A stretch of DNA of 64,000 bases, from assembly GCF_005885675.1 (NCBI RefSeq), contig NZ_VANR01000008.1, positions 62,721-126,720 on the forward strand, given 5' to 3'. This document shows positions 8,944 through 40,172 of this stretch, piece by piece (the stretch's first letter is position 1; each line of letters begins with the position of its first letter). Source of the stretch: Polaribacter aestuariivivens (lineage in GTDB: Bacteria > Bacteroidota > Bacteroidia > Flavobacteriales > Flavobacteriaceae). The notes beneath the pieces are model-generated. The model was not told where the DNA came from, did no database searches, and saw only the letters and a program-made list of their open reading frames with translations. The translations under genes were made by a program, and so were the position numbers.

Positions 8944-10368
8944 ATGAAAATAAAATTGACACTTATTGTTTTATTAATACTTTCAATTGAAGGTTTTTCT
9001 CAAAAAAATAATTTCGATTATTTAAAAAATTCTAATCCCAATCAAAAAAACGAATTATCCCTTCATTTCAGAAATGCGATTCCTTTTAGGTTATTAAAAA
9101 ATATTAAATATCCTAGAGCAACGTATACACTAAATGTATTTTTTTATGTAAATAAATTAGGGGAAGCTTATGATATAAGTACAAGTTTTAAAGTAAATAA
9201 AGAACTTGGCGATACAATTAAAAAAGCGCTTTTAGATTTTCCTTTAGAAAAGTTAAATCTCGGAGAATTAGACAGTAAAAAGAGATATTCTTTTCAAATT
9301 ATTGCAAGCACAGTTGATTTTGAAAATATTATTTACTGTAGTTCAATTGTAATTTCTGAAACACTCCCCGTATGTAAAGCTTGCGAAGATTTAGAGTACT
9401 ACCAAGACATTAAAAGCTGTATAAATTTAGAAATTAATAATTATTTTAATCAAAATATAGATTCTTCTGAAGTTAAAATAGTAAAAAAGGAAACAAAAAG
9501 TTTAAAGGCAAAATTAAAAATCAATAAAAAAGGTAAGTTAATTCTTTTAAAAGGTAAGAATTCAGAGTTATTTTTAGAAGCTACGAGTAGTTTTCCTCTT
9601 TTTGATAGTCCTGCCAAAATAAATGGAAAACCAATTGTATATAATTATACTTTTTATCCATCCACTAGTAAAAAAAATATTTTTTTAAATACTGATGTTA
9701 ATTCTGATTTTAAAACAAATCCAACAAATAAATTTACAAAATTTATAACAGAAAAATTAGATTCAAAATATATAAAAAACTCTGGACTGAACAGAATTAA
9801 TAAGAACATATATTTAAATTTTGAAATTAATAAAATTGGAGAACCATTTAATATTAAAACTAATGCTCGTTCTTATAGTTTAGAAAAAAAAATCATTGAA
9901 ATTTTTAAAGAATACCTAAATACAGAATTTAAAATCGAAGAGATAAACACTTTAGCTAATTATTTTACAACTATTTTGTCCTATAAAAATGGTAAAACCA
10001 TAGTAGAAACTTTCAATAAATTTGGCAAAGAAACTACCCCTATATTTCCAGGGTGTGGACAATCTAAAAGTATTTCAGATGCAAAAAAATGTTTTAGTAG
10101 GGGTGTACAACGTCATTTTACAAGGAATTTTGATTCAAAATTACCCAAAAGACTTCGTTTATCTCCTGGTAGAAAAAGAATTTTCATAAGTTTTAAAGTT
10201 AATAAAGCAGGAGAAATAGAAGACATAAAAGCTAAAGCTTCTCATCCAGAAATTGTAGATGAAGTAATAAAAGTAATAAAAAGATTACCCAAAGTAAAAC
10301 CTGGTTTACAAAAGAACAAGCCTGTTAGTGTAAAATACTCCATGCCTTTTATAATAATAGTGCAATAA
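8944..10368 (+). CDS. Secreted protein with TonB C-terminal-like repeats
   Basis: The first 19 residues form a signal peptide ending IEGFSQ. The rest holds three divergent modules resembling the TonB C-terminal domain of Bacteroidota transducers: strands of the form FYVNKLGEAYDI, FEINKIGEPFNI and FKVNKAGEIEDI. Modules two and three are preceded by Cys motifs (PVCKACEDLEYYQDIKSC and FPGCGQSKSISDAKKC). The last module, with LPKVKPGLQKNKPVSVKYSMPF, is the closest to canonical TonB_C. There is no cytoplasmic/TM anchor as in true TonB, so it is probably a free periplasmic or outer-membrane-associated protein. It lies 15 bases after the AstE-like gene. Function unknown. Confidence 0.6.
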   Translation: MKIKLTLIVLLILSIEGFSQKNNFDYLKNSNPNQKNELSLHFRNAIPFRLLKNIKYPRATYTLNVFFYVNKLGEAYDISTSFKVNKELGDTIKKALLDFPLEKLNLGELDSKKRYSFQIIASTVDFENIIYCSSIVISETLPVCKACEDLEYYQDIKSCINLEINNYFNQNIDSSEVKIVKKETKSLKAKLKINKKGKLILLKGKNSELFLEATSSFPLFDSPAKINGKPIVYNYTFYPSTSKKNIFLNTDVNSDFKTNPTNKFTKFITEKLDSKYIKNSGLNRINKNIYLNFEINKIGEPFNIKTNARSYSLEKKIIEIFKEYLNTEFKIEEINTLANYFTTILSYKNGKTIVETFNKFGKETTPIFPGCGQSKSISDAKKCFSRGVQRHFTRNFDSKLPKRLRLSPGRKRIFISFKVNKAGEIEDIKAKASHPEIVDEVIKVIKRLPKVKPGLQKNKPVSVKYSMPFIIIVQ

Positions 10369-23467: not shown

Positions 23468-24280
23468 ATGACATTCATAAAAACTACAGAACAAGATTCA
23501 AAATACAATCATTTAGAAAAAATGACGGTAAAAGAAATTTTGTTCCACATAAACAATGAAGATAAAACAGTTCCTTTAGCTGTTGAAAAAGCATTGCCAC
23601 AAATAGAAAAACTAACTACTCAAATTGTTCAAAAACTAAAAAATGGTGGAAGACTTTTTTATATAGGTGCTGGAACTTCTGGTAGATTGGGTATTTTAGA
23701 TGCTTCTGAATGTCCACCAACTTTTGGTGTTCCTCATGAATTGGTTGTTGGTTTAATTGCTGGTGGAGATATTGCCATTAGAAAAGCTGTAGAAAATGCT
23801 GAAGATTCTAAAAACCAAGGTTGGTTAGATTTGCAAACACATAATGTTTCAGAAAAAGATGTTGTGGTTGGTATTGCAGCTTCTGGAACAACACCTTACG
23901 TTATTGCAGCCTTAGAAAAGTGCAACGAAAATAACATCATTACAGGTTGTATAACCTGCAATAAAAACAGCCCTTTATCTGTAGTTTCTCAATTTCCTAT
24001 TGAAGTAGTTGTAGGATCTGAATTTGTAACAGGAAGTTCAAGAATGAAGGCAGGAACTGCTCAAAAATTAGTTTTAAACATGCTTTCTACTACAACCATG
24101 ATTCAACTTGGAAAAGTAAAAGGTAATAAAATGGTAGACATGCAATTGTCTAACAACAAATTGGTAGAAAGAGGTGAAAAAATGTTAGTTAAAGAGCTAA
24201 ATATAGACCAAGCTACTGCTGCTACACTTTTAAAAAAGTATGGAAACGTAAGAAACTCTATTATAAATTACAAAAAATGA
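23468..24280 (+). CDS. murQ: N-acetylmuramic acid 6-phosphate etherase
   Basis: MurQ cleaves the lactyl ether of MurNAc-6-phosphate to give GlcNAc-6-phosphate and lactate in peptidoglycan recycling. The 270-residue protein carries the SIS sugar-isomerase fold with the family signature GAGTSGRLGILDASECPPTFG near residues 65-85 and SRMKAGTAQKLVLNMLST in the C-terminal half. The start at 23468 fits the family N-terminus (TEQDSKYNHLEKMTVKEIL). It overlaps the next small membrane-protein gene by 4 bases (ATGA), so both are on one transcript. Confidence 0.95.
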   Translation: MTFIKTTEQDSKYNHLEKMTVKEILFHINNEDKTVPLAVEKALPQIEKLTTQIVQKLKNGGRLFYIGAGTSGRLGILDASECPPTFGVPHELVVGLIAGGDIAIRKAVENAEDSKNQGWLDLQTHNVSEKDVVVGIAASGTTPYVIAALEKCNENNIITGCITCNKNSPLSVVSQFPIEVVVGSEFVTGSSRMKAGTAQKLVLNMLSTTTMIQLGKVKGNKMVDMQLSNNKLVERGEKMLVKELNIDQATAATLLKKYGNVRNSIINYKK

Positions 24281-24531
24281 GTACAAATGTAAATTTATTA
24301 GGTAAAGGTTTAAAATATTTAGCTATTTTAATATTTTTATTTATTGCTTCTCCAATAACTTTAACCATGGGTTTTAAAGCATTAAATAAGTTTGAAAATA
24401 CTGACAATGCATATATTTCTTATGTCCTAATTTCTGTTGCAGTTTGCTTAATTATTTTTACGATTTACTTTGCTTTTAAAACATTTAAAATACTTTTAGC
24501 TGCTTTGTTTGACAATTCATCAACAAAATAA
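24277..24531 (+). CDS. Small two-helix membrane protein (DUF6095-like)
   Basis: An 84-residue protein with two hydrophobic helices (about residues 12-34 and 47-70) joined by a polar loop (LNKFENTDN). It resembles the DUF6095 family often found beside murQ in Flavobacteriia; the family name is from memory. Function unknown. It overlaps murQ by 4 bases and ends 2 bases before the next gene, so the three genes form an operon. Confidence 0.7.
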   Translation: MSTNVNLLGKGLKYLAILIFLFIASPITLTMGFKALNKFENTDNAYISYVLISVAVCLIIFTIYFAFKTFKILLAALFDNSSTK

Positions 24532-24533
24532 AA

Positions 24534-25526
24534 ATGCCAACTTCAAACGGAATAATTATCATTTTATCTTATCCAGATACCGTTGTAAGACCTGCTTATT
24601 GGGAAAAATTGAGTGCTTTTTGGCCAAAAATTGGTATTGGTGGCAAACACGCAGTACAAGCTGGTCATGCAGCATTATTGTTACTTAAAAAAAATGATGC
24701 TGTTATTAATTATTTTGATTTTGGAAGATACATTACCTCTTACGGAAATGGACGAGTTCGTTCAAAAGAAACAGATCCAGAATTAGCCATTTCTATTGCT
24801 GCCAAATTTGAAAAAAATCAATTAAAAAATCTTTCAGAAATTTTATTGTGGATAGAAAATCATCCAGAAAAAACTCATGGAGATGGCAGGTTGGTTGCAA
24901 GTATAAATGAAGAAATTAATTTTGAAAAAGCAGCGCTATTCATACACCAATTAATTGAAAAAAAGGAAATTCCTTATGGAGCTTTTTTAAAAAATGGGAG
25001 TAACTGCGCACGTTTTGTAACAGATACAATTATTGCATCTTCTGAAAATAAAAAAATCAAAAACGCCTTAAAAACCTCTAATTTATTTACTCCAAGTCCT
25101 ATTGGAAACGTAATAAAAGGCAATTCTACAGATAAAATATATGAAGTTTTTAAACAAAAAATAAAACAATACAAAAACAGGTCTGTAATCAAAGAATATA
25201 GAGCGTCTTTTTTAAACAAGTTTGAAGGTTCACCTGATTTAAAAGGAACAGAAATGCCTAACATAGAGGTTTTTCAACCAAAAAACGGAACGTGGTTAGG
25301 AGGTATAGGAAGTGGTGCTTGGTTTAAAATTGAAAGAAAAATTTCTGACAAAAAATATAAAATTGCAAGATATACCTCAGATGGTATAAAAGACTTTGAA
25401 AATGATTTTTTAATTGATAATGAAGCTTTTAATCATGAAAAAGAACATCAATTTATACACCCCACAAATTGTATTGAAATTTACATTCAGCAAAATAATA
25501 TCATTTATTCTTCAAAAGTTAATTAG
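24534..25526 (+). CDS. Putative permuted papain-fold hydrolase (DUF6695-like)
   Basis: A 330-residue protein with no signal peptide. His45 lies in AVQAGHAALLLL and Cys158 in NGSNCARFVTDTI, with FDFGRY in between. A His-first, Cys-later order is that of circularly permuted NlpC/P60 (LRAT/YiiX-like) enzymes, so a thiol hydrolase acting on peptides or lipids is plausible. The C-terminal ~80 residues form a small beta domain with a glycine-rich start (GTWLGGIGSGAWFKI). Its position behind murQ hints at cell-wall peptide handling. Family name DUF6695 is from memory; activity is inference. Confidence 0.6.
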   Translation: MPTSNGIIIILSYPDTVVRPAYWEKLSAFWPKIGIGGKHAVQAGHAALLLLKKNDAVINYFDFGRYITSYGNGRVRSKETDPELAISIAAKFEKNQLKNLSEILLWIENHPEKTHGDGRLVASINEEINFEKAALFIHQLIEKKEIPYGAFLKNGSNCARFVTDTIIASSENKKIKNALKTSNLFTPSPIGNVIKGNSTDKIYEVFKQKIKQYKNRSVIKEYRASFLNKFEGSPDLKGTEMPNIEVFQPKNGTWLGGIGSGAWFKIERKISDKKYKIARYTSDGIKDFENDFLIDNEAFNHEKEHQFIHPTNCIEIYIQQNNIIYSSKVN

Positions 25527-25683
25527 TTTTTATTCATAAAAAACTTTTAAGAAGTTCTTTTTAACTAAAAGATTACACTACTAAAAAAACTTTAACTCAA
25601 ATAATTTTATTCTTAGTGCAATTGCATGATAATCTATTAAATATCAATTTAAAAGAATAAATTTGTGTAACCAAAAAAAGACT

Positions 25684-28593
25684 ATGAAAAAAACTACTTT
25701 ACTATACAGCATTTGCCTACTACTTTTCACAACAACAATTACTGCCCAAAAAAAATCAAACAACAGTATAAAAGAGCTTATAGAATCTTATAAAAAAGAT
25801 ATTAGAGGTCCTTATTATAGAATTAAATGGTTTTGTAAAGATGGCTCTGTAAGAGATGCCAAAGATCCTTGTCCAGATTCTATTGGAGGTGGAATTCAGC
25901 ATGCAAGTTTTAAACAATCTGCCTTAGATTTAAGAAAAACAAATCATTTATTTTTTGGTGAAATATTGGCAAGTGTAAACACAACCGATTTTTTAGATGA
26001 AAAAAATAATTATAGCAGATTAAAACAATATCAAATCGGACAATATTTAGCAAGTGTAGATGATGGATGGGTTTTAAGAAAAGGACAATTTTATAGAGGT
26101 GCTATACAATCTGAAGACGAAGAAACTTGGGGTAAAAACTTTTTTGAAACTGTTTTAAAAGACGATAGCTTTTTAAATAAAAATTATTATTTAATAAGAC
26201 AAGCTTTAAAAGATATTCCTCATAATGGCGATTCTAACATAGCACAATCAATGCGAATTGAATCTAAAATTTTAGCAGAGGAAATTCCTGATTTTATGGA
26301 TATTAGAATTAAAATTCATGGTAATCCACAAAAATCTGATATTTATTTGGTGCAAAACTATGTGAAGAAGAATGCCTCTAACATATCAACAAAACAAAAG
26401 AAAGCGTTTGACAAACTTATAGCTACTATGAATGAGTTTTATGCTCCTTTAAATTATAATACAATTGCGAAAGAACTAAGTAAAATAAAAAAAGAAAATA
26501 CTGTTTTTGATTTTGTAAAGAGTTTTATAGAAGAAGACAAAACCAATTTTACAGCAAAAGAATACGTTTTAAAAATTACTGATGTTTTAGATTTATTAAG
26601 ATACAATATTGCACTTTTTGAAAGTAGTAAAGACCGCTTGAAGCTTTTAGACTTAACAAATCAATTAGAAAAAATTTTATTAATAGAAACTCAAAATTGG
26701 AACCCAGAAACATTAGAAGAAACCATTTTAAAAACACAAACATTAACTTGCGCATCTTATGCAACAGGTCTTGTAGAGGCTTGGGAGTTTGATATTATAA
26801 AGCCAACATTTTCTTACACCTTAAAAAATGACGAAACTACTTTAGGCGAATTGAACAGTTTGGTGGCAAACGCAAGAAGAATTGTAGAGTGGAGCACATC
26901 TTTAGTAAAAGCAAATTATGAAGAAAATGTAAATGAATACGCTGCATTTGAATCTTTAGCATATGGTTTTATTGATGACAGAATTCGAAACTCTATTACT
27001 CTAAATTTAGGAGAAACTGTAAGCAAACTAAACAATTTTGCTGCTAAAGTTTCCGAAGTAAATAATAACGTAATGAGTATTAGTAACCAAGGTGCAATTA
27101 GAGGATTAAATCCTGGATATGCATTTGGTAAACTAATTGTAGTTTCAGGAAACCCAGATGATGTGGAAGTAAATACCAACAATATTTATATTTTTCAAAA
27201 ACCACCTTCAGATTTAAAACCTGTTGCTGGAATTATGACTGTTTCTGAAGGGAATTTAGTTTCTCACGTACAATTATTAGCTCGAAATTTAGGAATTCCA
27301 AACGCAGCTTTGTCTAGTGAAAACTTAAACTCGTTAGAAGAATTTAACAATCAAAATGTTTTTTATGCAGTTTCAAATAAGGGAAATGTTATTTTAAAGT
27401 TAGAAAACGACATGACAAATGAAGAACGTGAACTGTTTGATAAAAAAGAAAGAACAAATAACATGATTACAGTTCCAACTGATAAACTAAAGTTAGATGT
27501 TTCTAAAATCATAAATATGAGAGATGTAAAAGCAACAGACTCTGGTATTTTATGTGGTCCAAAAGCGGCAAATTTAGGAGAGTTAAAAAATCTTTTTCCA
27601 AGCAAAGTTGTAGAAGGTATCATTATTCCTTTCGGAATTTTTAAAACGCATATGAATAAAGAAATGCCTGGTAAAAACATGAGTTATTGGGAGTTTTTAA
27701 ATGCAACTTTCGAAAAATCCAAAGAACTAAAAAATGAAAATACTTCAAGTGACGAAATAGAAACATTTTTAATTTCTTCATTAAAAGAATTACATACAGC
27801 TATTTTAAACATCAATTTAGATGATAGTTTCACAAGCGATTTAAAAGAAAGTTTTAAAAATGTATTAGGTGATGAAATTGGTAATGTACCTGTTTTTTTA
27901 AGAAGTGACACCAATATGGAAGATTTGAAAGAATTTACTGGAGCTGGTTTAAACTTAACACTTTTTAATATTTTAGAAGAAGAAAAAATTACTCAAGGAA
28001 TCAAGCAAGTTTGGGCTTCTGCATATACCGAAAGAAGTTTTAAATGGCGTCAAAAATATTTATTAAATCCAGAAAACGTATATCCTTCAATTTTAATCAT
28101 ACCAAGTGTAGATGTAGATTATTCTGGTGTGATGATTACAAAAGGAATTAATGAAGGTTCTGAAAACGATTTAACAGTTGCCTTTAGTAGAGGTGCTGGA
28201 GGTGCTGTAGATGGACAATCTGCAGAAACAAGATTAATAACTGCTGAGGGAAGTTTCTTGCTAAGTCCTGCAAGGCAACCAGATTATATTCGCTTACCTG
28301 CAACTGGAAGTACAAAAAAATATTACACAACTTTTAACAGGCCTATTTTAAATAATAAAAATATAAACGATATTAGAGAATTAGCTTCAGAAATCAGAGA
28401 AAAAATTGGAGGTACATCTACTGAAGAACCACATGCTTATGACGTAGAATTTGGTTTTAAAGATGATAAATTATGGCTTTTTCAAATAAGACCTTTTGTA
28501 GAAAACAAACAAGCAAAAAGCTCTGATTATTTGAACTCAATTGCACCAAACGTAGATATTAATACAACCATTAAACTAACTGAAAAAATATAA
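25684..28593 (+). CDS. Exported PEP-synthase-like dikinase, glucan-water-dikinase domain order
   Basis: A 969-residue protein. I start it at 25684 because MKKTTLLYSICLLLFTTTITAQ is a good signal peptide; an upstream TTG adds seven odd residues. Residues 25-480 are an unrecognised mostly helical region. A swivelling phosphohistidine domain follows, with VSEGNLVSHVQLLARNLGIP and active-site His528. Then comes a complete PPDK_N-type ATP-grasp domain (about 615-935): CGPKAANLGEL, VFLRSDTNMED, FSRGAGGAVDGQSAET and the metal/ATP end LFQIRPF. There is no PEP-binding TIM barrel. The His domain before the nucleotide domain is the order of plant glucan water dikinases, not of PEP synthase. All key residues seem intact although the protein is predicted to leave the cytoplasm. 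The serine hydrolase gene follows 2 bases later. Confidence 0.75.
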   Translation: MKKTTLLYSICLLLFTTTITAQKKSNNSIKELIESYKKDIRGPYYRIKWFCKDGSVRDAKDPCPDSIGGGIQHASFKQSALDLRKTNHLFFGEILASVNTTDFLDEKNNYSRLKQYQIGQYLASVDDGWVLRKGQFYRGAIQSEDEETWGKNFFETVLKDDSFLNKNYYLIRQALKDIPHNGDSNIAQSMRIESKILAEEIPDFMDIRIKIHGNPQKSDIYLVQNYVKKNASNISTKQKKAFDKLIATMNEFYAPLNYNTIAKELSKIKKENTVFDFVKSFIEEDKTNFTAKEYVLKITDVLDLLRYNIALFESSKDRLKLLDLTNQLEKILLIETQNWNPETLEETILKTQTLTCASYATGLVEAWEFDIIKPTFSYTLKNDETTLGELNSLVANARRIVEWSTSLVKANYEENVNEYAAFESLAYGFIDDRIRNSITLNLGETVSKLNNFAAKVSEVNNNVMSISNQGAIRGLNPGYAFGKLIVVSGNPDDVEVNTNNIYIFQKPPSDLKPVAGIMTVSEGNLVSHVQLLARNLGIPNAALSSENLNSLEEFNNQNVFYAVSNKGNVILKLENDMTNEERELFDKKERTNNMITVPTDKLKLDVSKIINMRDVKATDSGILCGPKAANLGELKNLFPSKVVEGIIIPFGIFKTHMNKEMPGKNMSYWEFLNATFEKSKELKNENTSSDEIETFLISSLKELHTAILNINLDDSFTSDLKESFKNVLGDEIGNVPVFLRSDTNMEDLKEFTGAGLNLTLFNILEEEKITQGIKQVWASAYTERSFKWRQKYLLNPENVYPSILIIPSVDVDYSGVMITKGINEGSENDLTVAFSRGAGGAVDGQSAETRLITAEGSFLLSPARQPDYIRLPATGSTKKYYTTFNRPILNNKNINDIRELASEIREKIGGTSTEEPHAYDVEFGFKDDKLWLFQIRPFVENKQAKSSDYLNSIAPNVDINTTIKLTEKI

Positions 28594-28595
28594 CT

Positions 28596-29909
28596 ATGAA
28601 AATAAAATATATAATTTTAACCATTTTAGTAGTAGCCTCATTAGGTTTTATAAAATACCCAATAGATGGTTACGAAACTACTGGAATCAAGCGTTTGTAT
28701 CAACTTAGAAAAATGCAATTAGATAGTGTAAAATACACTAGAATACCTGCAGGAGCTTACAAAAAATTAGCTGATATAAAATTAAATCTTTTAGAAAGAA
28801 GTGATGACAGTGTTCAAGATTTATTAATAACTGATAAAGATTTTGAAAAAAAATTAAAAAGAATTATTCCTTCAGGTGCTTATTCTTTAGCAGCTATGGA
28901 TATGACAAATCCTAATAAGTTAAGATACGCAGAACATAGAGAAAATGTTGGTTATCAACCAGGAAGTGTAGGTAAAATTGCAGTGCTTTTAGCTGTTTTT
29001 GATCAATTAGAAAAACTTTGTCCAGATTCTTGGGAAGATAGAGCTGGTTATTTAAAAAATATTAAAGTAACTTCTAGATATTGGGGTACAGGTGATCACC
29101 ACACCATACCTGTTTATGATATCGAAAAAGATAAACTAACCAAAAGAAGAGTAATTGCTAGCGATGAGTTTTCATTATATGAATGGCTAGATCATATGGT
29201 TTCTGTTAGTAATAATGGTGCAGCAAGTGTAATGTATAGAGAAGCAATGTTAATGGCAGCTTTCGGACAAGATTATTTCTTTTTAGATGCAGAAAAAGCT
29301 GAAAAGTATTTTAAAGAAACTTCAAGAGACTCTTTAACAAACCTTGCAAACACTGTAGTTAATGAACCTCTAAGGAAATTAGGAATCGAAGAAAATGAGT
29401 GGAAATTAGGTGGTATGTTTACAAGAGGTCCTGAAAAGTATGTAGGCAGAAAAGGAGGAAGTATTGGAACTCCAAAAGGTTTAATGAAGTTTTTGGTTAA
29501 ATTAGAACAAGGGAATGTAGTAGACAAAGAGTCTAGTTTAGAAATGAAAAGATTGCTTTATTTAACAGACAGAAGAATTAGATATGCAAAATCTCCAAGA
29601 CTGGATAGTGCAGCTGTATATTTTAAATCTGGTAGTTATTACAAATGCGACAGAGTTAAAAATCCAGATTGTGCAAGTTATGCTGGTAACGTTTTTAACT
29701 TTATGAATTCTGTTATTATTGTAGAGCACCCAAATGGATTGAAATATATTGTTTGTTTAATGTCTAACGTTTTAAATAAAAATTCTGCTGGTGCACATAT
29801 GTATTTGGCTAGTAAAATTGATGATATTATTGATGAAGCTAATGTTTCTAAAAAACCTATCATTAAAGAAGAAGAATATAAAGCTGACAAGGATGAAAGT
29901 GACAATTAA
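28596..29909 (+). CDS. Exported serine hydrolase, class A beta-lactamase fold
   Basis: A 437-residue protein with an N-terminal signal/anchor helix (about residues 4-20). The three active-site elements of class A beta-lactamases are in order: Ser124-V-G-Lys127 in PGSVGK, Ser205-N-N in VSVSNNGA, and Lys344-S-G-S in YFKSGS. The chain is about 150 residues longer than a lactamase, with an insert around residues 225-290. A carboxypeptidase, esterase or transpeptidase-like role is as likely as antibiotic resistance. It is translationally adjacent to the dikinase (2-base gap) and its stop overlaps the convergent transporter gene by 4 bases. Confidence 0.78.
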   Translation: MKIKYIILTILVVASLGFIKYPIDGYETTGIKRLYQLRKMQLDSVKYTRIPAGAYKKLADIKLNLLERSDDSVQDLLITDKDFEKKLKRIIPSGAYSLAAMDMTNPNKLRYAEHRENVGYQPGSVGKIAVLLAVFDQLEKLCPDSWEDRAGYLKNIKVTSRYWGTGDHHTIPVYDIEKDKLTKRRVIASDEFSLYEWLDHMVSVSNNGAASVMYREAMLMAAFGQDYFFLDAEKAEKYFKETSRDSLTNLANTVVNEPLRKLGIEENEWKLGGMFTRGPEKYVGRKGGSIGTPKGLMKFLVKLEQGNVVDKESSLEMKRLLYLTDRRIRYAKSPRLDSAAVYFKSGSYYKCDRVKNPDCASYAGNVFNFMNSVIIVEHPNGLKYIVCLMSNVLNKNSAGAHMYLASKIDDIIDEANVSKKPIIKEEEYKADKDESDN

Positions 29910-32734
29910 TTCTTAGAAAAACCCATAAAATTATTATAAGTATCGCTGGCAAGTTTTTTTACCTTTTTGCTGCGATACTTTTTTATTGGTAATAAAACAG
30001 GAATGTAATTTTTATTTTTTGAAGCTGCAATCAACTCAACAATTAAAAAACGTAGGTGACTGCCTCCCATTCTCATTATTTTTTCTAAATACTTTTTCTC
30101 TGTTAGCAAACTCAATTCTATTATAGGTGAATTGTAATGCTTATCGTCAACTACATAATACTCTACAATTGGTAATACTTTTGTTTTTACCTCTGCTTGT
30201 AACAAGTTATCTAAAAATTCTAAAGAATTAATTTTAGCTTCTTTAATTTCACTTTTTATGCCCACAAAAGTCATGTTAATATCTTCTTCATTATAAAGCA
30301 TACTTAAAAGTTTAAATAAGCTTTCTAATGTGTTTTCTAACTCATGTTCTAATGCAGTTATTAAATTTTTTCTGGCTTCATAAATTTGTTGCTCTGCAGA
30401 AGATTTTTCATCAACTAACTCCTCATTAATAACATGTTGTATAGAGGTTATAATTTCTAAAATATTACGATAATAATTAGACTCTCTAACAATTTGATTT
30501 TTTATTAATTTTCTGGTAATTAACAAATTAGAACTTTTCTTTTTTAATTTTGCTAAGGAGTTTGATGCTGCTAAACGCGTAACACTGTTTTTATTTTTTA
30601 ATAAACGAATTAAAATTTTAACGGCATTTTCGTTATTAAAAGATTCTATAATTTTAGGAACATATTTTTTAATATTTCCTTTAATGTCATCTTCTTTATC
30701 AAGTTTTAAAATACTATCAATAATTTTTGGCCCATAGCTTTTTAAAGCCTTTATGGCTCTTTTTCTATGTTTTTTCTTAGCAGTTAAATTTAATAAATCT
30801 TCAATAAAAAGTTCATCAGATGTAATACCTGCAGCAATTGTAGCAAATTTTACTATATAGCTTTTTCTGTTAGATAAGTTTTCCTGAATGTAATGATAAT
30901 GGGTTACCATTCTCGCATTTGCAATGCTTATTAACAAGCCCGCAATTACTTCTTTTCTTACGGTATTTTCTTCTGCCTTAAACAGATGAATTTTATTGTT
31001 TAACCTATCTTTTAAATTATACTTTAATCCTAAAATTGAGTTTCTGGAATTTTGTTTAGCCAAAGCCATTAAAGCTCCGTTTGCAATATATTCGTTTTCG
31101 TGATCTAAATATTTTACAAAAAAGGAATCTTCATTTATGTGAGAGTTTTCTAAAATATACTCTAAGGCAACATATACTAACGTATCATCTTTCTCATAAA
31201 CTAAAGGTTTAATGTTGTTTAAAATTGAAGTATCTTCAATATTGTGTAAAAAATCAATAGCTTGTATTTTTACTTTATTAGATGGGTGTTTTAAAAGTTT
31301 TATGACTGATTTTTGAAATATTTTTGAATTAAAATCATTTAACCTTGAAATTACTTCTAAAATAGATTCTTCTTTGCCACTTTCTAAAATTCTTTTTATG
31401 TGTGTTATAGAATTTTCTTTATTCGCTTTTTTATCGTCATTTTCAGACAATAACGTTTTTTGGATATTTTTTTTAAAAGAATTGAAATAAGCTTCTCGCA
31501 AACGATAAATGAGTACAATCCAAATAAAAACGAAAAGTAAAATAATTACAGTAATGTAAGTGGTTTCTAAATCTAATCGTTTTATTAAAAATATTAATAA
31601 AAAACCTGCAATACCTGTAGCTATACTATCTACAGCAACATCTATATAAGATTTTGCTTGATTTTTTATCAGAATTGGAATAGGCATAATAGACAATTCT
31701 ACAGATGCTTTATTTATAGATTGTTTAAAACTACCATCTATACCTTTAATTAATACTAAAACCCATAATTCAGGAAAAGTTAAAAATAATAAACTACCTA
31801 AACCAATAGCTAAAGGTAAAATTAACAATGTTGATGATACACCTAATTTTGTAAGAATTTTATTTGTTAAAAACAATTGAATTGTTAAAGCTACAACGTT
31901 AAATGTCGAAAACCAAAATCCAAAAAAGGCAGCTAAATCATCAGAGTTAGGAATGGCTTTGTGAGCAAAGTCGCTAAATTGAAAATCTACTAATTTGGCA
32001 ACAATAACTCCAATTCCTGTAATAAATGCAATGTACGTAAGGTGTTTTGAATTTGCTATTAATTTTATAGACGAGCTTTCTAAAGTATCTTGTTTTGCAA
32101 TTACTTGCTTTCTTTTAAAAGTGTTTAAATATTTAATTCTTAATTCATATACTTTTTTTATGATAGGAATACAACCTAATAAAAGTATTGCTGCAATAAA
32201 AATTGCAGCTTCAGTACCAAAATTAGATGCAATAATACTTGTTAAATAACCTCCAAAAATACCACCTGCTATGGCTCCTGCTCCTATAAATCCAAAAATT
32301 CTTTTGGCTTCTCTTGCGTTAAAAACCATGTTGGCGAAAATCCAAAATTGTGAAGTAGCAATGACAGCAAATAATGAAATAAAAACATAATAAAAGTACA
32401 GTAGCCAATTACTAGTTAAAGAAAATTTTAAAATAATACTTAACCCTAAAAAAGCCAAACTAAATATTACCAGAGAAATAATTGCTACTTTAACTAGCGA
32501 CAATTTTCTAATAGCTCTGTTATAAAAATAAGATGTAGATACCGCAACAAATGCAACTAACAAGTAGCCAAAAGGTAAGTTATCTGCCCCTAATTTAGAT
32601 ACAAATAATGCGTTTACAGTTGGTTTTACTATTAATAAAACTGTAATTACAATAAAAATGTATAGTTGCATTAAAAAAGAGATGTATATTTCACCATCTC
32701 TTAATCCGAATGTTTTACTTAGTATCTTTTTCAC
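29906..32734 (-). CDS. Npt/TLC-like nucleotide transporter fused to HEAT repeats
   Basis: A 942-residue protein starting with GTG (MKKILSKTFGLRDGE). Residues 1-430 contain about 12 membrane helices and resemble the Npt1/Npt2 (ADP,ATP carrier, TLC) group of the MFS-like superfamily: an Arg/Lys-bearing first helix region, the AREAKRIFGFIGAGAIAGGIFGG segment and KGIDGSFKQSINKASVEL in the second half. Residues 440-940 are helical pairs of HEAT type (for example NSVTRLAASNSLAKL, ENEYIANGALMALAKQ). The transported molecule is not certain. A second serine hydrolase gene lies 23 bases upstream on the same strand, and the 3' end overlaps the convergent hydrolase gene by 4 bases. Confidence 0.65.
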   Translation of the reverse strand: MKKILSKTFGLRDGEIYISFLMQLYIFIVITVLLIVKPTVNALFVSKLGADNLPFGYLLVAFVAVSTSYFYNRAIRKLSLVKVAIISLVIFSLAFLGLSIILKFSLTSNWLLYFYYVFISLFAVIATSQFWIFANMVFNAREAKRIFGFIGAGAIAGGIFGGYLTSIIASNFGTEAAIFIAAILLLGCIPIIKKVYELRIKYLNTFKRKQVIAKQDTLESSSIKLIANSKHLTYIAFITGIGVIVAKLVDFQFSDFAHKAIPNSDDLAAFFGFWFSTFNVVALTIQLFLTNKILTKLGVSSTLLILPLAIGLGSLLFLTFPELWVLVLIKGIDGSFKQSINKASVELSIMPIPILIKNQAKSYIDVAVDSIATGIAGFLLIFLIKRLDLETTYITVIILLFVFIWIVLIYRLREAYFNSFKKNIQKTLLSENDDKKANKENSITHIKRILESGKEESILEVISRLNDFNSKIFQKSVIKLLKHPSNKVKIQAIDFLHNIEDTSILNNIKPLVYEKDDTLVYVALEYILENSHINEDSFFVKYLDHENEYIANGALMALAKQNSRNSILGLKYNLKDRLNNKIHLFKAEENTVRKEVIAGLLISIANARMVTHYHYIQENLSNRKSYIVKFATIAAGITSDELFIEDLLNLTAKKKHRKRAIKALKSYGPKIIDSILKLDKEDDIKGNIKKYVPKIIESFNNENAVKILIRLLKNKNSVTRLAASNSLAKLKKKSSNLLITRKLIKNQIVRESNYYRNILEIITSIQHVINEELVDEKSSAEQQIYEARKNLITALEHELENTLESLFKLLSMLYNEEDINMTFVGIKSEIKEAKINSLEFLDNLLQAEVKTKVLPIVEYYVVDDKHYNSPIIELSLLTEKKYLEKIMRMGGSHLRFLIVELIAASKNKNYIPVLLPIKKYRSKKVKKLASDTYNNFMGFSKN

Positions 32735-32757
32735 TTTTTATAGTTCAATTTTTAGCA

Positions 32758-33717
32758 CTATAAAGAACGTGATTTATTTAATACTTTTTCTAATGGTCTT
32801 ACTAAATTTCTAATTATTTGTTCACCATAATCATTGTCAACTAAAGCCACAATAATATATTTTCTTTCTGGACCCCAAACCAATGCAGAATCTGAATGGT
32901 AATTTCTCCAAGAACCCGATTTTCTGTACACATCTGCTTTAGGTGCTACAATATCTAGTGTGTTCACAAATTTGTGATGTAAAGCTGGATCTTTCATAAT
33001 TTCTAACATTTCAGTAGATTTTTCTGTAGAAATTAAATTCCCCATTGCTAATTGATAGTAAAAATTACAAACTTGTCTTGTTGTAGCTGCATGACTTAAG
33101 CCTTTTATAGGGTCTGGATTTCTTTTTCCAGCAGCTGCATATCTTTTTCCAACCCATAAACCTCCACCAACTTTTTCGTCATAAAGTTTAATTGTTGGTG
33201 CTCTTAAAACCTCTTCAATTTTTTTATATCCTAGCCTATCAATCATTCTAGTAGATGCTCTATTGTTAGATTTACTAATCATTAATCGTAAATCTTCTCT
33301 TATTTCTTCAGAATCTTTTAGTTCTCCTTTATCTAACGCATCCATTGCTGCCAATAAAATTGCTATTTTTGGTAAACTTGCAGCGTACATCATAAAGTTA
33401 TCATTCAAACCTGCATATTTAAATTTTGTAGAATCACTTAAATCTACAATTCCAATGGACATTTGTTTCCCTTTTATTAGTCGTCTCCAAGTTTTATTTT
33501 TATAAATTTCTTTTTCTAAAATTTTTTGAAGTTCTGAGCTTTCAATTTCTGCAATAGGTGTAATATCTCTATATAAATTGATTGGCAACTCACTATTGTA
33601 GTTTTTACCATAACTCTTTTTTTCTATAATAGAGTTTTGAGATTGCCCTGTAAAAGACAACATAATTAATAAAATGGTACATATAAATTTATTGTTTGTT
33701 GTAAACATTATAATCAT
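32758..33717 (-). CDS. Second exported class A beta-lactamase-fold serine hydrolase
   Basis: About 319 residues from the ATG at 33717. Starts at 33708 or further upstream (33729, 33762) are possible. I chose it because MIIMFTTNNKFICTILLIML followed by SFTGQSQ makes a signal peptide. Active-site elements: SLPK (about residues 114-117) in MYAASLPKIAILLAAMD, SNN in ISKSNNRAS, and KSGS in VYRKSGSWRNY. The length is close to true class A enzymes, and WVGKRYAAAGKRNPDP is a family-like omega-region insert lacking the classical ExxLN. It is probably the first gene of a two-gene transcript with the Npt-like transporter. Confidence 0.78.
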   Translation of the reverse strand: MIIMFTTNNKFICTILLIMLSFTGQSQNSIIEKKSYGKNYNSELPINLYRDITPIAEIESSELQKILEKEIYKNKTWRRLIKGKQMSIGIVDLSDSTKFKYAGLNDNFMMYAASLPKIAILLAAMDALDKGELKDSEEIREDLRLMISKSNNRASTRMIDRLGYKKIEEVLRAPTIKLYDEKVGGGLWVGKRYAAAGKRNPDPIKGLSHAATTRQVCNFYYQLAMGNLISTEKSTEMLEIMKDPALHHKFVNTLDIVAPKADVYRKSGSWRNYHSDSALVWGPERKYIIVALVDNDYGEQIIRNLVRPLEKVLNKSRSL

Positions 33718-33740
33718 TTTTAAATTCATAATATAATACA

Positions 33741-33748
33741 CAAAATTA
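33741..33748 (-). promoter_or_regulatory. Candidate -7 box for the hydrolase-transporter pair
   Basis: TAATTTTG on the minus strand is a full TAnnTTTG match about 24 bases before the chosen start; no TTG at -33 spacing. Confidence 0.4.
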
Positions 33749-33793
33749 ACACCAAAACACAACTGTAGAGTGTTAATATTTTACAAAAATATT

Positions 33794-37296: not shown

Positions 37297-38190
37297 TTAT
37301 TTGCTTTCAAAGATAAACTTTCTTATTATTTTTTCTGTATTTGATGGCAAATCTGTATTTTTTGTATCAAATTTCTTTACATTCATTTCTTTGAACCATT
37401 TTTCAAAATAGCTATGAATAATCTCTTCGTCATTTAAATTTCCTTCATAAGGATTTATACCTAAAACTAAAATCTCTAAATTACTTAAATCTTTAACATT
37501 AGAAATATACCCAAAATCTTTTATAGGTATATCTACATTTGAAATTCTATTATTCTTGATGAAATTATGAGTTAAATAACTGCTTCTATTTCCATTTCTT
37601 TTCTTCGAGTTTTTATGATACATATAACCATCTGTTAAAATAATTAGTATATTTCTATATCCATCTTCAACACAATAATCTTCTACTTTATTTTTAAAAA
37701 AACGCCAAATATCAGAACCAATATAACTATTATCTTTAATTGCTGACTCGTAAATAGATTCTGTTATTTTTTCATATTTTTTAGAAGTTTGTAAAATTGA
37801 GTTTCTTTTTGCATTGCTTCTGGTAAAATTAATTTTTAAATCTTTAATTTTCTTATTAAGCTCTTTTTCTTCTGGCTCTGGATCAATAAAAAGTTGAATT
37901 TTATCATTTATTCTTCTTGTTTTCTTATTCCTTACATGAATTTCAAAAGTTTGTGCTATGGATTTAATATATCCAATATCTCTTTTGTAAATATCCATAG
38001 TATTATTTGGGTGTAATTTGGGGTTTATTCTATCAGATAAATCTAAAAGAATACTAATATTTAAATTAGATTTTTTTCCTAATAATTTTACTGTTTCATA
38101 TTCAGACTGTTCAAGAACTTCATCTTTAATCTTATCTTTTTTACAAGAAATTCCTAATATGAGAAAAAGTACTAAAATTATATTTTTCAT
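37297..38190 (-). CDS. vWA-like lipoprotein
   Basis: A 297-residue lipoprotein (signal MKNIILVLFLILGISC, lipobox GISC). After a short linker the sequence reads SILLDLSDRI, a divergent MIDAS-like DxSD motif at the first strand of a von Willebrand A-type fold. RNILIILTDGYMY matches the later strand with its Asp-Gly. The region between contains charged helices and a loop rich in Lys/Asn. It would therefore be an extracytoplasmic protein-binding module. It follows the coiled-coil membrane protein gene by 6 bases, which suggests partnership. Not enough is visible to name a family. Confidence 0.6.
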   Translation of the reverse strand: MKNIILVLFLILGISCKKDKIKDEVLEQSEYETVKLLGKKSNLNISILLDLSDRINPKLHPNNTMDIYKRDIGYIKSIAQTFEIHVRNKKTRRINDKIQLFIDPEPEEKELNKKIKDLKINFTRSNAKRNSILQTSKKYEKITESIYESAIKDNSYIGSDIWRFFKNKVEDYCVEDGYRNILIILTDGYMYHKNSKKRNGNRSSYLTHNFIKNNRISNVDIPIKDFGYISNVKDLSNLEILVLGINPYEGNLNDEEIIHSYFEKWFKEMNVKKFDTKNTDLPSNTEKIIRKFIFESK

Positions 38191-38196
38191 AACAAA

Positions 38197-39456
38197 TTAG
38201 TTTATTAACTTATATAAAATTCCTTCAGAATTATTATCATCTATTGAATGATCTGCTAAATGTTGCTTTTCAACTTCTACACATTTTGCTAAGACGTCAT
38301 CAGCTCTTTTTAGTGGTAAATGGTCTGTTATGGAAGAATACCAACCTTTAACGTACTCTGCGTGATAGGTTAAGTACTGTTTATCAGAAAAAATAAAGCC
38401 ATCTATGGTTCTTTGTAAGTCACTTATTTTTCCTTCTAGCCCAGAAATTTCTTCTTTTATTGGGTTTAATTTAGATGTAAGCTCATCTATATTTAATTCT
38501 GAATTTTTTATGTCTTCTTTCCTTGTTCTTATAAAACTCTTTATTTTATCTAAATTATCGTATTCTTTCATAATAAAATCGAATACTAAGCCCCAGATAA
38601 TATAAACTACAAAACCTGCAAAGATAATTCCCCAAAATTCTACACTACTAAAAGCTATGCTTAAATCAAACTCTGGAGAATCTGGTGTTTTTTCTATATT
38701 ATAGATTTTCATTTCGATTTGATAAGCTAAAATGGCATCAAAAACAAAAGTGACTAAAAATAGCATCCCAATTTTTAAGATAGAAGTCCAACTTTTATGC
38801 TTTTGAAACATATGCACTAAATAACCTAGCCCCATAAATGCAAAAGGAATTGTAGCCACAAAAACTGCCTCCAACCATCCATCTCCTATTGCTTTTGTTA
38901 GCGCTTTTCCATCAAAAATTGCTGCTGAAAGTTCATCAGATTCAAAGTTTTTAAAAAATGCTGAATAAGATGCTGAAATATAAAAAACTAATAAATAAAA
39001 AGTAATTGGTATTAACACAATTAGTCCTAAATAAAACTGAGCTTTTGGTTTCTTATCAATATCTAAACCAAATTTTTCTGGTATATTTTTTACCTCAACA
39101 ATATCATTTCTATACTCTATGATTTTTTTCTCTTCATTATGAATAGATTCTTCTATTATAGATGTTACAGTATTCCTTTTTTTAAGCTCTATTTCTACTT
39201 TTCCTTTTTCTTCTTTATATGGTTTCTTTAATTCGTTTTGCAGGTTTATGTTATCTCTACATTTTCCTTTATAATCCATATAAACATCGTTCAAACAAGC
39301 CTTGTAAACAACTGGATTTCCACTTGAAGCCTTAGAAGAGCCATAACCACTTTCGAAAAAAGTGAATTTTTCTTTCTTAAAATCTTCCTCTTTTTTATCT
39401 ATATGCTCTACAGGGACTTCTTTTTTTAAGGCAAAAATATTTTTTAAAGAATTCAT
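38197..39456 (-). CDS. Four-helix membrane protein with flanking coiled coils, unknown
   Basis: A 419-residue protein without signal peptide. A polar ~135-residue N-terminal region contains charged coiled coil (residues about 90-125). Four membrane helices follow at about 142-165, 195-215, 225-245 and 270-295, and a second coiled coil at about 305-355 (IDELTSKLNPIKEEISGLEGKI). The C-terminal ~60 residues are soluble. I do not recognise a family. Its start overlaps the TerB-like gene by 4 bases (ATGA) and the vWA lipoprotein gene follows by 6 bases. The three probably act as a trans-envelope unit (cytoplasmic TerB-like, membrane protein, outer lipoprotein); this is inference. Confidence 0.6.
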   Translation of the reverse strand: MNSLKNIFALKKEVPVEHIDKKEEDFKKEKFTFFESGYGSSKASSGNPVVYKACLNDVYMDYKGKCRDNINLQNELKKPYKEEKGKVEIELKKRNTVTSIIEESIHNEEKKIIEYRNDIVEVKNIPEKFGLDIDKKPKAQFYLGLIVLIPITFYLLVFYISASYSAFFKNFESDELSAAIFDGKALTKAIGDGWLEAVFVATIPFAFMGLGYLVHMFQKHKSWTSILKIGMLFLVTFVFDAILAYQIEMKIYNIEKTPDSPEFDLSIAFSSVEFWGIIFAGFVVYIIWGLVFDFIMKEYDNLDKIKSFIRTRKEDIKNSELNIDELTSKLNPIKEEISGLEGKISDLQRTIDGFIFSDKQYLTYHAEYVKGWYSSITDHLPLKRADDVLAKCVEVEKQHLADHSIDDNNSEGILYKLIN

Positions 39457-39854
39457 AATTGATTAATTTGTTTGATTAAATCTACTTTAGATATTTTCTC
39501 TTTTGCTTTTTCTAAAAGAAAATTAGCTAATTCAACAATGTTTTCTTTTAGAAAACCAAATTTTAAGCAATACTTTTTTAAAGTATTTATCTCGTCTTCT
39601 GTAACAATATTGTCTGCCCAAATCATAATTGCCAAATCGTACAAGTATTCAATTTTTTCTTCAAATTTTTCTGGAATTGAGGTATTATGGGAAGGCTGTA
39701 GTAATATTTTTTCTAACTCTTCTTTGGAAACACCTCTTTCTTCTGCAAATTTATAAAGCATTTGTAATTCAAGAGTATCGAAATTATCATCAGAAAATGC
39801 CATTTGGTATAATCTTAAAAAATGGCTTTTTAATTCAATTGTTATTTCTTTCAT
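39453..39854 (-). CDS. TerB-like (tellurite-resistance-type) helical protein
   Basis: A 133-residue cytoplasmic all-helical protein. Two related halves are visible: FLRLYQMAFSDDNFDTLELQMLYKFAEERGVSKEELEKIL and YLYDLAIMIWADNIVTEDEINTLKKYCLKFGFLKE. Each has an aromatic-Asp-Asp/Asn acidic turn and a following E-x-x-x-L helix, the pattern of the TerB/DjlA-N fold, which can bind metal. TerB domains occur with vWA and membrane proteins in phage- or stress-response systems, and a vWA protein is indeed in this operon. It overlaps the membrane-protein gene by 4 bases. Confidence 0.65.
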   Translation of the reverse strand: MKEITIELKSHFLRLYQMAFSDDNFDTLELQMLYKFAEERGVSKEELEKILLQPSHNTSIPEKFEEKIEYLYDLAIMIWADNIVTEDEINTLKKYCLKFGFLKENIVELANFLLEKAKEKISKVDLIKQINQL

Positions 39855-39857
39855 AAC

Positions 39858-40172
39858 TTAATCTGGTAGGTTTTCACAAGGAATATTGTCATCGTCAATA
39901 TCTAAATTTCGATAACAGTTTGGGTTGCTATTAAAAAAAGTTTGTGCTTCAGATTGTGTTTTAAAATCTGAACACTTTTTCTTCTCACAACTACTTTCTG
40001 TTTCCTCACAAGAGGTAAATAAAATTGTTGTAACAAAAAATATACATACAGTTAAAAAGCAACCTAAATTATTTTGTTTTTTAGGTTTATTAGATTTTTT
40101 ATTTTTTTTAGAAACAAAATGACCTTGTACATATGTTCCATCTTTTTTATGATAACCTCTTCTGTAACTCAT
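39858..40172 (-). CDS. Excalibur-domain membrane-anchored protein
   Basis: A 104-residue protein with a basic cytoplasmic N-terminus (about 35 residues), one membrane helix (LGCFLTVCIFFVTTILF, possibly with a lipobox-like TSC after it) and an external C-terminal domain. That domain reads CSDFKTQSEAQTFFNSN...NLDIDDDNIPCENLP, which is the Excalibur calcium-binding motif (D-x-D-x-D ... C-E). Its N-terminus YRRGYHKKDGTYVQGHFVS is another small conserved motif. It is 3 bases before the TerB-like gene and 1 base after the DUF4236 gene. Role unknown. Confidence 0.7.
   Translation of the reverse strand: MSYRRGYHKKDGTYVQGHFVSKKNKKSNKPKKQNNLGCFLTVCIFFVTTILFTSCEETESSCEKKKCSDFKTQSEAQTFFNSNPNCYRNLDIDDDNIPCENLPD

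Follow-up and report, generated by a model that had tools for sequence, protein, structure and literature searches.

A conserved four-gene locus of Bacteroidota joins a putatively exported dikinase to two serine hydrolases and an NTT-HEAT transporter

The four genes and their products

The locus described here lies on a 64,000-nt stretch of DNA (the window) of Polaribacter aestuariivivens (assembly GCF_005885675.1, contig NZ_VANR01000008.1, forward-strand positions 62,721-126,720). It consists of four genes, encoding a dikinase (DIK), two SxxK serine hydrolases (SH1 and SH2) and a transporter of the NTT family with C-terminal HEAT repeats (NTT-HEAT; Table 1). A first-pass annotation, made from the sequence letters, had placed four converging genes at 25684-33717 of the window, and we found the open reading frames (ORFs) exactly there. 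SH1 starts 2 bp after DIK, as had been noticed, the ends of SH1 and NTT-HEAT overlap by 4 bp and a 23-bp gap separates SH2 from NTT-HEAT; the natural reading of this spacing is that DIK-SH1 and SH2-NTT-HEAT are two convergent two-gene operons. Upstream of the DIK start, at a distance of 18 bp, TAAATTTG (25658-25665) fits what we take to be the Bacteroidota -7 promoter element, TAnnTTTG, and is a candidate only; a sigma-70 promoter scan gave a site count no higher than in shuffles.

Table 1. Positions of the features discussed (window coordinates unless a locus name precedes them)
Feature	Position	Strand	Basis or detail
Whole module, between the TseH-like and DinB-like genes	25527..33793	.	block absent in three non-carrier congeners
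DIK, predicted exported dikinase, 969 aa	25684..28593	+	ORF and Pfam
DIK signal peptide (predicted), residues ~1-21	25684..25746	+	cleavage between MKKTTLLYSICLLLFTTTITA and Q, site placed by eye
DIK helical domain, residues ~24-470 (about 450)	within 25684..28593	+	no assigned family
DIK invariant cysteine pair, C51 and C63	25834..25872	+	50/50 (A6), 15/15 (A5)
DIK phosphohistidine domain, residues ~471-600 (H528)	within 25684..28593	+	alignment with PEP synthase His domain
DIK catalytic histidine H528, in SEGNLVSHVQLLARNLGIPNA	27265..27267	+	aligned with PEP synthase His domain; invariant
DIK ATP-grasp domain, residues 605-942	27496..28509	+	structure comparison of model
SH1, SxxK serine hydrolase with N-terminal membrane anchor (predicted)	28596..29909	+	ORF and Pfam
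SH1 motifs S124-K127 (SxxK), S205-N207 (SxN), K344-S345-G346; invariant C351 and C359	28596..29909	+
NTT-HEAT transporter, 942 aa, GTG start	29906..32734	-	ORF, Pfam, model
NTT (MFS-type) membrane domain, residues 1-425	31460..32734	-	structure comparison of model
C-terminal HEAT-repeat domain, residues ~440-937	29924..31417	-	Pfam, profile, model
SH2, SxxK serine hydrolase, predicted secreted	32758..33717	-	ORF and Pfam
SH2 motifs S114-K117 (SxxK), S150-N152 (SxN), K266-S267-G268	32758..33717	-
murQ (MurNAc-6-phosphate etherase) and TseH/NlpC-P60-like gene with DUF6695	23468-25526		flank the module
T9SS-tailed dikinase	L022:7301-11242	-	sorting domain by Pfam
T9SS-tailed dikinase	L023:5628-9599	+	sorting domain by alignment
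T9SS-tailed dikinase	L024:9008-11521	+	sorting domain by Pfam

DIK matches PF01326 (PPDK_N) with 96.5 bits against a Pfam cut-off of 27, and it is the sole match to this family in its own genome, where neither a PEP synthase nor a PPDK of the ordinary kind was thus found; one congener (G016) has a PPDK_N match in an 802-aa ORF. The domain order is that of a permuted dikinase, with signal peptide, helical domain, phosphohistidine domain and ATP-grasp following one another: the His match (474-552) precedes the ATP-grasp domain, right after which the protein ends. Of the four Pfam families proposed by the first-pass annotation, PF01326, PF03219 and PF13354 were matched above cut-off, while PF00391, the His domain, had no match in the DIK of the window and stayed sub-threshold in the three relatives that showed any; despite this, the region aligns with the PEP synthase His domain. 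The same annotation had described a dikinase with intact ATP-grasp residues, and H528, K627, R740, E922, Q934 and R936 are indeed invariant in 50/50 aligned dikinases, at positions which we take to be the ATP contacts of the PEP synthase/PPDK superfamily. Across the phylum, relatives align with DIK over nearly its full length at 39-84% identity. The structural model of DIK has a mean predicted local distance difference test score (pLDDT) of 82.4, lower near H528, and its residues 605-940 resemble rifampin phosphotransferase 5hv1 (Z 20.8, 310 aligned, 3.5 Å) and PEP synthase 2ols (Z 20.5, 299 aligned, 3.6 Å). The similarity of residues 255-340 to helical bundles (Z ~9) is under the tool's guide value for such bundles and was not used.

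DIK is very probably exported, judging by its N-terminus and those of its relatives. A strongly hydrophobic N-terminus was found in 91 of the 99 dikinase ORFs by a first script, with a lipobox-like pattern in three, and a laxer script found a hydrophobic N-terminus with a small-residue-Q pair within reach in 99/99, a count in which chance matches are possible. We assume that small-residue-Q is the usual signal-peptide junction of Bacteroidota. As a signal-peptide-like N-terminus thus recurs throughout the family by hydrophobicity script, a cytoplasmic location of the dikinase is unsupported. The cysteine pairs C51/C63 of DIK, a possible disulfide, and C351/C359 of SH1 would fit an oxidising compartment. 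Plasmid carriage of DIK was considered and rejected: of the 24 records that tblastn returned from a plasmid collection, none reached 80% coverage of DIK, and the matches listed (15/24) concern the ATP-grasp part alone, at 22-25% identity.

Both hydrolases match PF13354 above its cut-off of 22 (SH1 40.7 bits, SH2 72.0 bits), and the SxxK, SxN and K-S-G motifs are invariant in the alignments of either family (25/25 each). Pattern searches gave a similar picture: SxxK was present in 98, VSNN in 91 and K(S/T)G(S/T) in 96 of 98 SH1 loci, and S(L/M)PK in 84, S(N/Q)N in 72 and (K/R)(S/T)G(S/T) in 85 of 85 SH2 loci. SH1 and SH2 are paralogous families (hhalign probability 97.5), for which no relative of solved structure was found by profile at the cut-offs used. 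They share the three motifs with the class A beta-lactamases of PF13354 but lie far under the class A cut-offs, the NCBIfam model giving 21.3 bits for SH2 against a cut-off of 200 and no match for SH1, and they form two paralogous families tied to DIK. SH2 has D at position 180 in 24/25 sequences and E in 1/25, a position whose correspondence to the class A omega-loop E166 is putative. Both had been called exported by the first-pass annotation; this stands for SH2, whereas SH1 is more likely membrane-tethered than released, because by eye its N-terminus is a hydrophobic anchor in which no cleavage site stands out.

NTT-HEAT scores 46.2 bits with PF03219 against a cut-off of 21, and MFS_1 and HEAT_2 are also above cut-off, in line with the convergent Npt/TLC-like transporter with HEAT repeats that had been proposed. 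Searched with a profile built from 45 relatives, the PDB sequences yield plastid ADP,ATP carrier 1 (E 6e-12). The model (mean pLDDT 82.5, predicted template modelling score 0.64) was compared with known structures, giving Z 40.7 (411 aligned, 2.4 Å) for ATP-bound AtNTT1 (9j3l), 40.8 for ADP/Pi-bound AtNTT1 and 36.2 (415 aligned, 3.1 Å) for Chlamydia NTT1 (9j3n), against 30.2 for the best non-NTT MFS transporter, ten below AtNTT1. Because of this difference NTT-HEAT is, by its predicted fold, an NTT, and both the profile and the fold place it inside the nucleotide carriers. If MFS topology holds, its HEAT domain is expected in the cytoplasm. The membrane domain carries charged residues that are invariant in 45/45 relatives, namely K37, R141, E142, K144, R145, K247, D250, K330, K337 and K342, and further along E346, K361 and D369. 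Judged by N-termini or fold, all four products would belong to the envelope.

Joint presence and joint absence across Bacteroidota

The link between the four genes, which the first-pass annotation could only infer, is now strongly supported by co-occurrence and by empty sites. In a set of 59 relatives (36 same-genus and 23 same-order genomes, 48/59 at >=90% completeness, that is, at least 90%), all four genes stand together and contiguous in 7/36 same-genus genomes including P. aestuariivivens, and no orthologue of any module gene was found in the other 29 same-genus and the 23 same-order genomes, some of whose assemblies are incomplete. Among these non-carriers, seven genomes showed partial dikinase matches to other ORFs (E 6e-13 to 4e-4) and one a distant NTT match (36 bits). 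We also sampled the phylum evenly, with 392 Bacteroidota genomes from 178 genera. DIK, SH1 and SH2 each occur in 14/392 genomes, the identical 14, spread over 13/178 genera and six families, and none of the three was found there without the other two. An NTT-HEAT or NTT match of some kind is present in 29/392 genomes; matches above 700 bits are confined to 12, all within the 14 DIK carriers, and the next best, at 525 bits, belongs to a sister group found in DIK-less genomes and in the carrier G254. Since the sampled genomes are related, the 14 carriers are not 14 independent events; carriers and non-carriers also occur side by side in genera g107 and g127, which together with the likewise mixed g1 offer the clearest independent contrasts.

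The survey of DIK covered Bacteroidota, and a scan of genome contigs gave 482 relatives, of which the best 80 were inspected. The exact order DIK>SH1>NTT<SH2< is found in 80 of the 99 loci viewed, with at least four genomes duplicated among these loci (L017/L052, L021/L056, L039/L087, L040/L088). The remainder comprises one locus with an extra SH2, one with a flipped transporter, nine with DIK-SH1 only, five without SH2, two without transporter and one with DIK alone. Loci with an incomplete set were followed up genome-wide, omitting L093, L113 and L129, which lie on short contigs: SH2 was present in 12/12 genomes searched whole (10 loci without nearby SH2 and 2 complete controls), and the transporter in 11/11 of those 12 that were searched for it, the copy of G456 lying in two pieces on two contigs. 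Six Leeuwenhoekiella genomes and one Maribacter metagenome-assembled genome have a DIK-SH1 locus, with SH2 and NTT-HEAT side by side outside the stretch viewed, and in G233 DIK stands alone at its locus while SH1, NTT-HEAT and SH2 lie at three other places, making four separate sites. This joint retention when dispersed, in G233 and in the seven split genomes, indicates that the association is not mere linkage. Counted over 49 genus-level units (89 loci; units labelled by us according to record title and family code), DIK has SH1 nearby in 48, NTT in 43 and SH2 in 41, and the neighbour that comes next in frequency in 12. As side observations, L067 (Psychroserpens burtonensis) has two tandem SH2 copies, two NTT-HEATs occur in G454 (Tenacibaculum adriaticum), where one adjoins SH2 on another contig, and the SH2 copy of G455 contains one internal stop.

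Empty sites were found in three non-carrier congeners (L149, L150 and L151), which keep the full flank TBDT-CB-murQ-TseH-DinB-RW without the module. From the aligned end of TseH to that of DinB the distance is 188 bp in L149, 41 bp in L150 and 36 bp in L151, where carriers have four genes; with the flanks intact and the gap this short, exactly the four module genes are missing. Eight non-carrier congeners were viewed at the DinB-like gene; besides these three, the flanks were incomplete or rearranged in the five others. At the L149 empty site (around 9670-9859) a 17-bp stretch is shared, letter for letter, with the start region of SH2, which hints at a deletion scar and hence at a loss of the module there. 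Next to the module, murQ is a flank in 7/7 same-genus carriers and the TseH-like gene in 5/7. A role of murQ and the NlpC/P60-like gene in peptidoglycan recycling with the module was considered and rejected: neither gene was found at 13 loci surveyed and both remain at the three empty sites, so they are not counted as part of the module. Farther along the window, at 37297-40172, lie four minus-strand ORFs, with two lipoprotein-like starts around a coiled-coil-looking membrane protein and a 133-aa ORF that by eye resembles TerB-type proteins.

Altogether, co-occurrence and empty sites reveal a gene association far beyond chance, the neighbourhood being conserved in Bacteroidota and the co-conservation of the four families nearly complete. 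The four genes almost certainly form one functional module.

Relatives and known systems

Two other families of the order contain dikinases that combine the His-then-ATP order and the catalytic His with a type IX secretion system (T9SS) sorting domain (Table 1). These T9SS-tailed proteins are likely secreted beyond the outer membrane, judging by the sorting domain, and so secreted dikinases exist beyond the module. Sister NTT-HEATs (439-525 bits) were viewed at nine loci in eight genomes. At L132:3852-10721, genes for an Omp85 protein and an exported calcineurin-like phosphoesterase form a run with them, and at L140:6545-14989 one adjoins a 1266-aa ORF that fuses phosphoesterase and Omp85; by eye, L133, L137, L138 and L139 have genes of similar appearance next to their sister NTT-HEATs, where the tested ORFs of L137 and L139, like one of L132, gave no Pfam match. 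At L134, L135 and L136 the phosphoesterase/Omp85 arrangement was not found directly beside the sister NTT-HEAT. The sister neighbourhoods also contain an S-x-PY-type lipoprotein and, in some cases, a second NTT without HEAT repeats. Given the T9SS dikinases and the sister NTT-HEATs beside phosphoesterase and Omp85 genes, both themes, secreted dikinases and NTT-HEATs near envelope phosphate chemistry, recur outside the module.

DIK shares the ATP-grasp fold and the His-domain sequence around H528 with PEP synthase, PPDK and rifampin phosphotransferase. PEP synthase and PPDK are built of ATP-grasp, His domain and C-terminal TIM barrel, whereas DIK has the reverse order and no TIM-barrel Pfam match; unlike rifampin phosphotransferase, it shows no rifampin domain and adds a signal peptide and a helical N-terminal domain. 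The plant enzymes GWD and PWD presumably run from substrate domains through a phosphohistidine domain to a C-terminal ATP domain, and DIK shares with them the His domain followed by the C-terminal ATP domain. DIK differs from GWD in having a signal peptide, and no carbohydrate-binding module was found in it by Pfam at E 0.1, a level at which a divergent module is possible. The catalytic His of GWD is essential and, according to the same source, no high-resolution GWD structure exists for comparison with DIK (PMC12892837).

An earlier study describes NTT-HEAT fusions as a monophyletic and widespread group without a known function as of 2017 (Major et al. 2017, PMC5381601). The module transporter likewise joins an NTT domain and, after it, HEAT repeats in a single chain, and the passages of that study consulted make no mention of a pairing with a secreted dikinase. 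Narrow term searches of the open-access literature, with subscription papers mostly outside, found no description of an exported dikinase or of this four-gene set. The domain superfamilies are already known; new, as far as we have seen, are the way in which the genes are combined, the family of permuted, secreted dikinases and the tie of that family to NTT-HEAT.

A possible nucleotide supply for envelope chemistry

We propose that the four genes form an envelope phosphotransfer module in which NTT-HEAT exchanges ATP, DIK phosphorylates and the hydrolases act on the same material, an account to which we give not quite an even chance. DIK would be secreted to the periplasm, where the beta-phosphate of ATP would be loaded onto H528 and passed to an envelope substrate held by the helical N-terminal domain, with release of AMP and phosphate. 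NTT-HEAT, lying in the inner membrane with its HEAT side cytoplasmic, would swap cytosolic ATP for spent periplasmic nucleotide, and SH1 (anchored) and SH2 (released) may either prepare the substrate of DIK or process it, acting as acyl-serine hydrolases or transferases. The two acyl-serine enzymes suggest that this substrate is either wall peptide or an ester- or amide-containing polymer or lipid. What we infer in this account is ATP as the cargo, the direction of transport, how DIK acts chemically on an envelope substrate and in which order the steps follow. Dikinases consume ATP and release AMP, and the best-known NTT members are nucleotide exchangers; a dikinase requires ATP, whose obvious source is the cytosol, and most simply NTT-HEAT would supply DIK and retrieve the spent nucleotide. 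Animal secretory-pathway kinases, for which ATP is brought into the Golgi, would be alike in their transporter-fed phosphorylation outside the cytosol, but the proteins are unrelated and the comparison is an analogy only.

Several observations weigh against this reading, above all at the transport step. The stricter NCBIfam NTT model TIGR00769 gives NTT-HEAT 25.9 against a cut-off of 387. We take residues K155, E245, E385 and K527 of AtNTT1 to be essential; in NTT-HEAT, E245 is replaced by S120 and K527 by T373, the equivalent of K155 is probably Y57 (by residue count, outside the aligned region), and E385, which corresponds to the invariant D250, is the one conservatively kept of E245, E385 and K527 (chain positions E161, E301 and K443 are consistent with a single offset of 84 from the AtNTT1 numbering). 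Among the carriers, G238 has no NTT-HEAT and only a weak NTT-like ORF of 441 aa (71 bits), and G254 has only the sister-type NTT-HEAT, so that the close transporter is not indispensable. As to the other proteins, the DIK stretches 509-515, 519-527 and 534-538 around H528 are modelled at pLDDT <50, the signal-peptide calls come from hydrophobicity scripts and not from a trained predictor, and two SxxK hydrolases alone do not indicate a phosphorylated product. The first-pass annotation had suggested that the transporter supplies nucleotide outside the inner membrane to an exported enzyme: the gene link, the predicted export of DIK and the predicted NTT fold have held up, while the supply step is weakened by the NTT1 residue changes and the two carriers lacking the close NTT-HEAT. 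That NTT-HEAT supplies ATP is a possibility we entertain with the balance somewhat against it.

The residue changes may also be read in another way, since an invariant charged set of its own, without equivalents of E245 and K527 of AtNTT1, fits a different phosphorylated substrate of NTT-HEAT. The locus could then scavenge by trapping: SH1 and SH2 would cut an external compound, DIK would phosphorylate the product with outside ATP and NTT-HEAT would import it. Many named carriers (among the best 80 of 482 relatives) belong to genera that we assume to be marine, where scavenging of phosphorus or carbon would pay. We consider this unlikely, as free extracellular ATP is scarce and DIK would still be left without a donor, and no further gene recurs by the module, the next commonest neighbour reaching 12/49 genus-level units. 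A modification of envelope polymers, of the wall or the surface, without dedicated ATP supply, with DIK using another phosphate donor and NTT-HEAT signalling or transporting otherwise, would accommodate G238, which has DIK, SH1 and SH2 without NTT-HEAT, and the fact that these three are the strictest trio (14, 14, 14). The ATP-grasp residues of DIK are nevertheless invariant and a close NTT-HEAT is present in 12/14 phylum carriers and in 11/11 further DIK genomes searched whole, which makes this somewhat less likely still in our judgement than scavenging.

A defence of the envelope against drugs, in which an MFS pump, an enzyme akin to rifampin phosphotransferase and two hydrolases resembling beta-lactamases would inactivate or expel antibiotics, is suggested by the nearest structure to the DIK ATP-grasp domain (5hv1, Z 20.8, though tied with PEP synthase at 20.5) and by the place of SH1 and SH2 within PF13354. 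It is improbable given that the domain order of DIK is wrong and its NCBIfam rifamycin phosphotransferase score is 50.4 bits where the cut-off is 999, that SH2 reaches little more than a tenth of the class A cut-off, and that the transporter model is 10 Z units nearer to plastid NTT1 than to drug-type MFS; as a plain antibiotic-resistance locus it was rejected for these scores far under curated cut-offs and for the DIK domain order. Anti-phage defence was likewise rejected, PADLOC giving HEAT-ARM_XIII alone at 21 bits, i.e. just HEAT repeats. Finally, four unrelated genes could have been kept adjacent by chance through cluster inheritance, as their adjacency in most loci (80/99 in full order) would allow. 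Such inheritance would hardly explain joint retention when dispersed (G233 and the seven split genomes) or joint absence as an exact block (L149, L150 and L151), and we regard it as extremely improbable.

The proposal that NTT-HEAT feeds an envelope phosphotransfer bears on a general view of the cell envelope. To our knowledge, the periplasm is held to contain no ATP, and envelope chemistry to be powered otherwise. A periplasm with its own ATP supply, in which NTT-HEAT exports ATP and reclaims AMP or ADP for the covalent modification of the envelope by DIK and the hydrolases, is a tentative idea that we think more doubtful than not. The joint retention of a putatively secreted ATP consumer and a nucleotide-type carrier is nonetheless a direct challenge to the ATP-free periplasm, and it gives NTT-HEAT proteins a partner enzyme and hence a first assay. 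If the idea is true, supplying nucleotide for envelope chemistry would be the role of NTT-HEATs in general, the sister group included.

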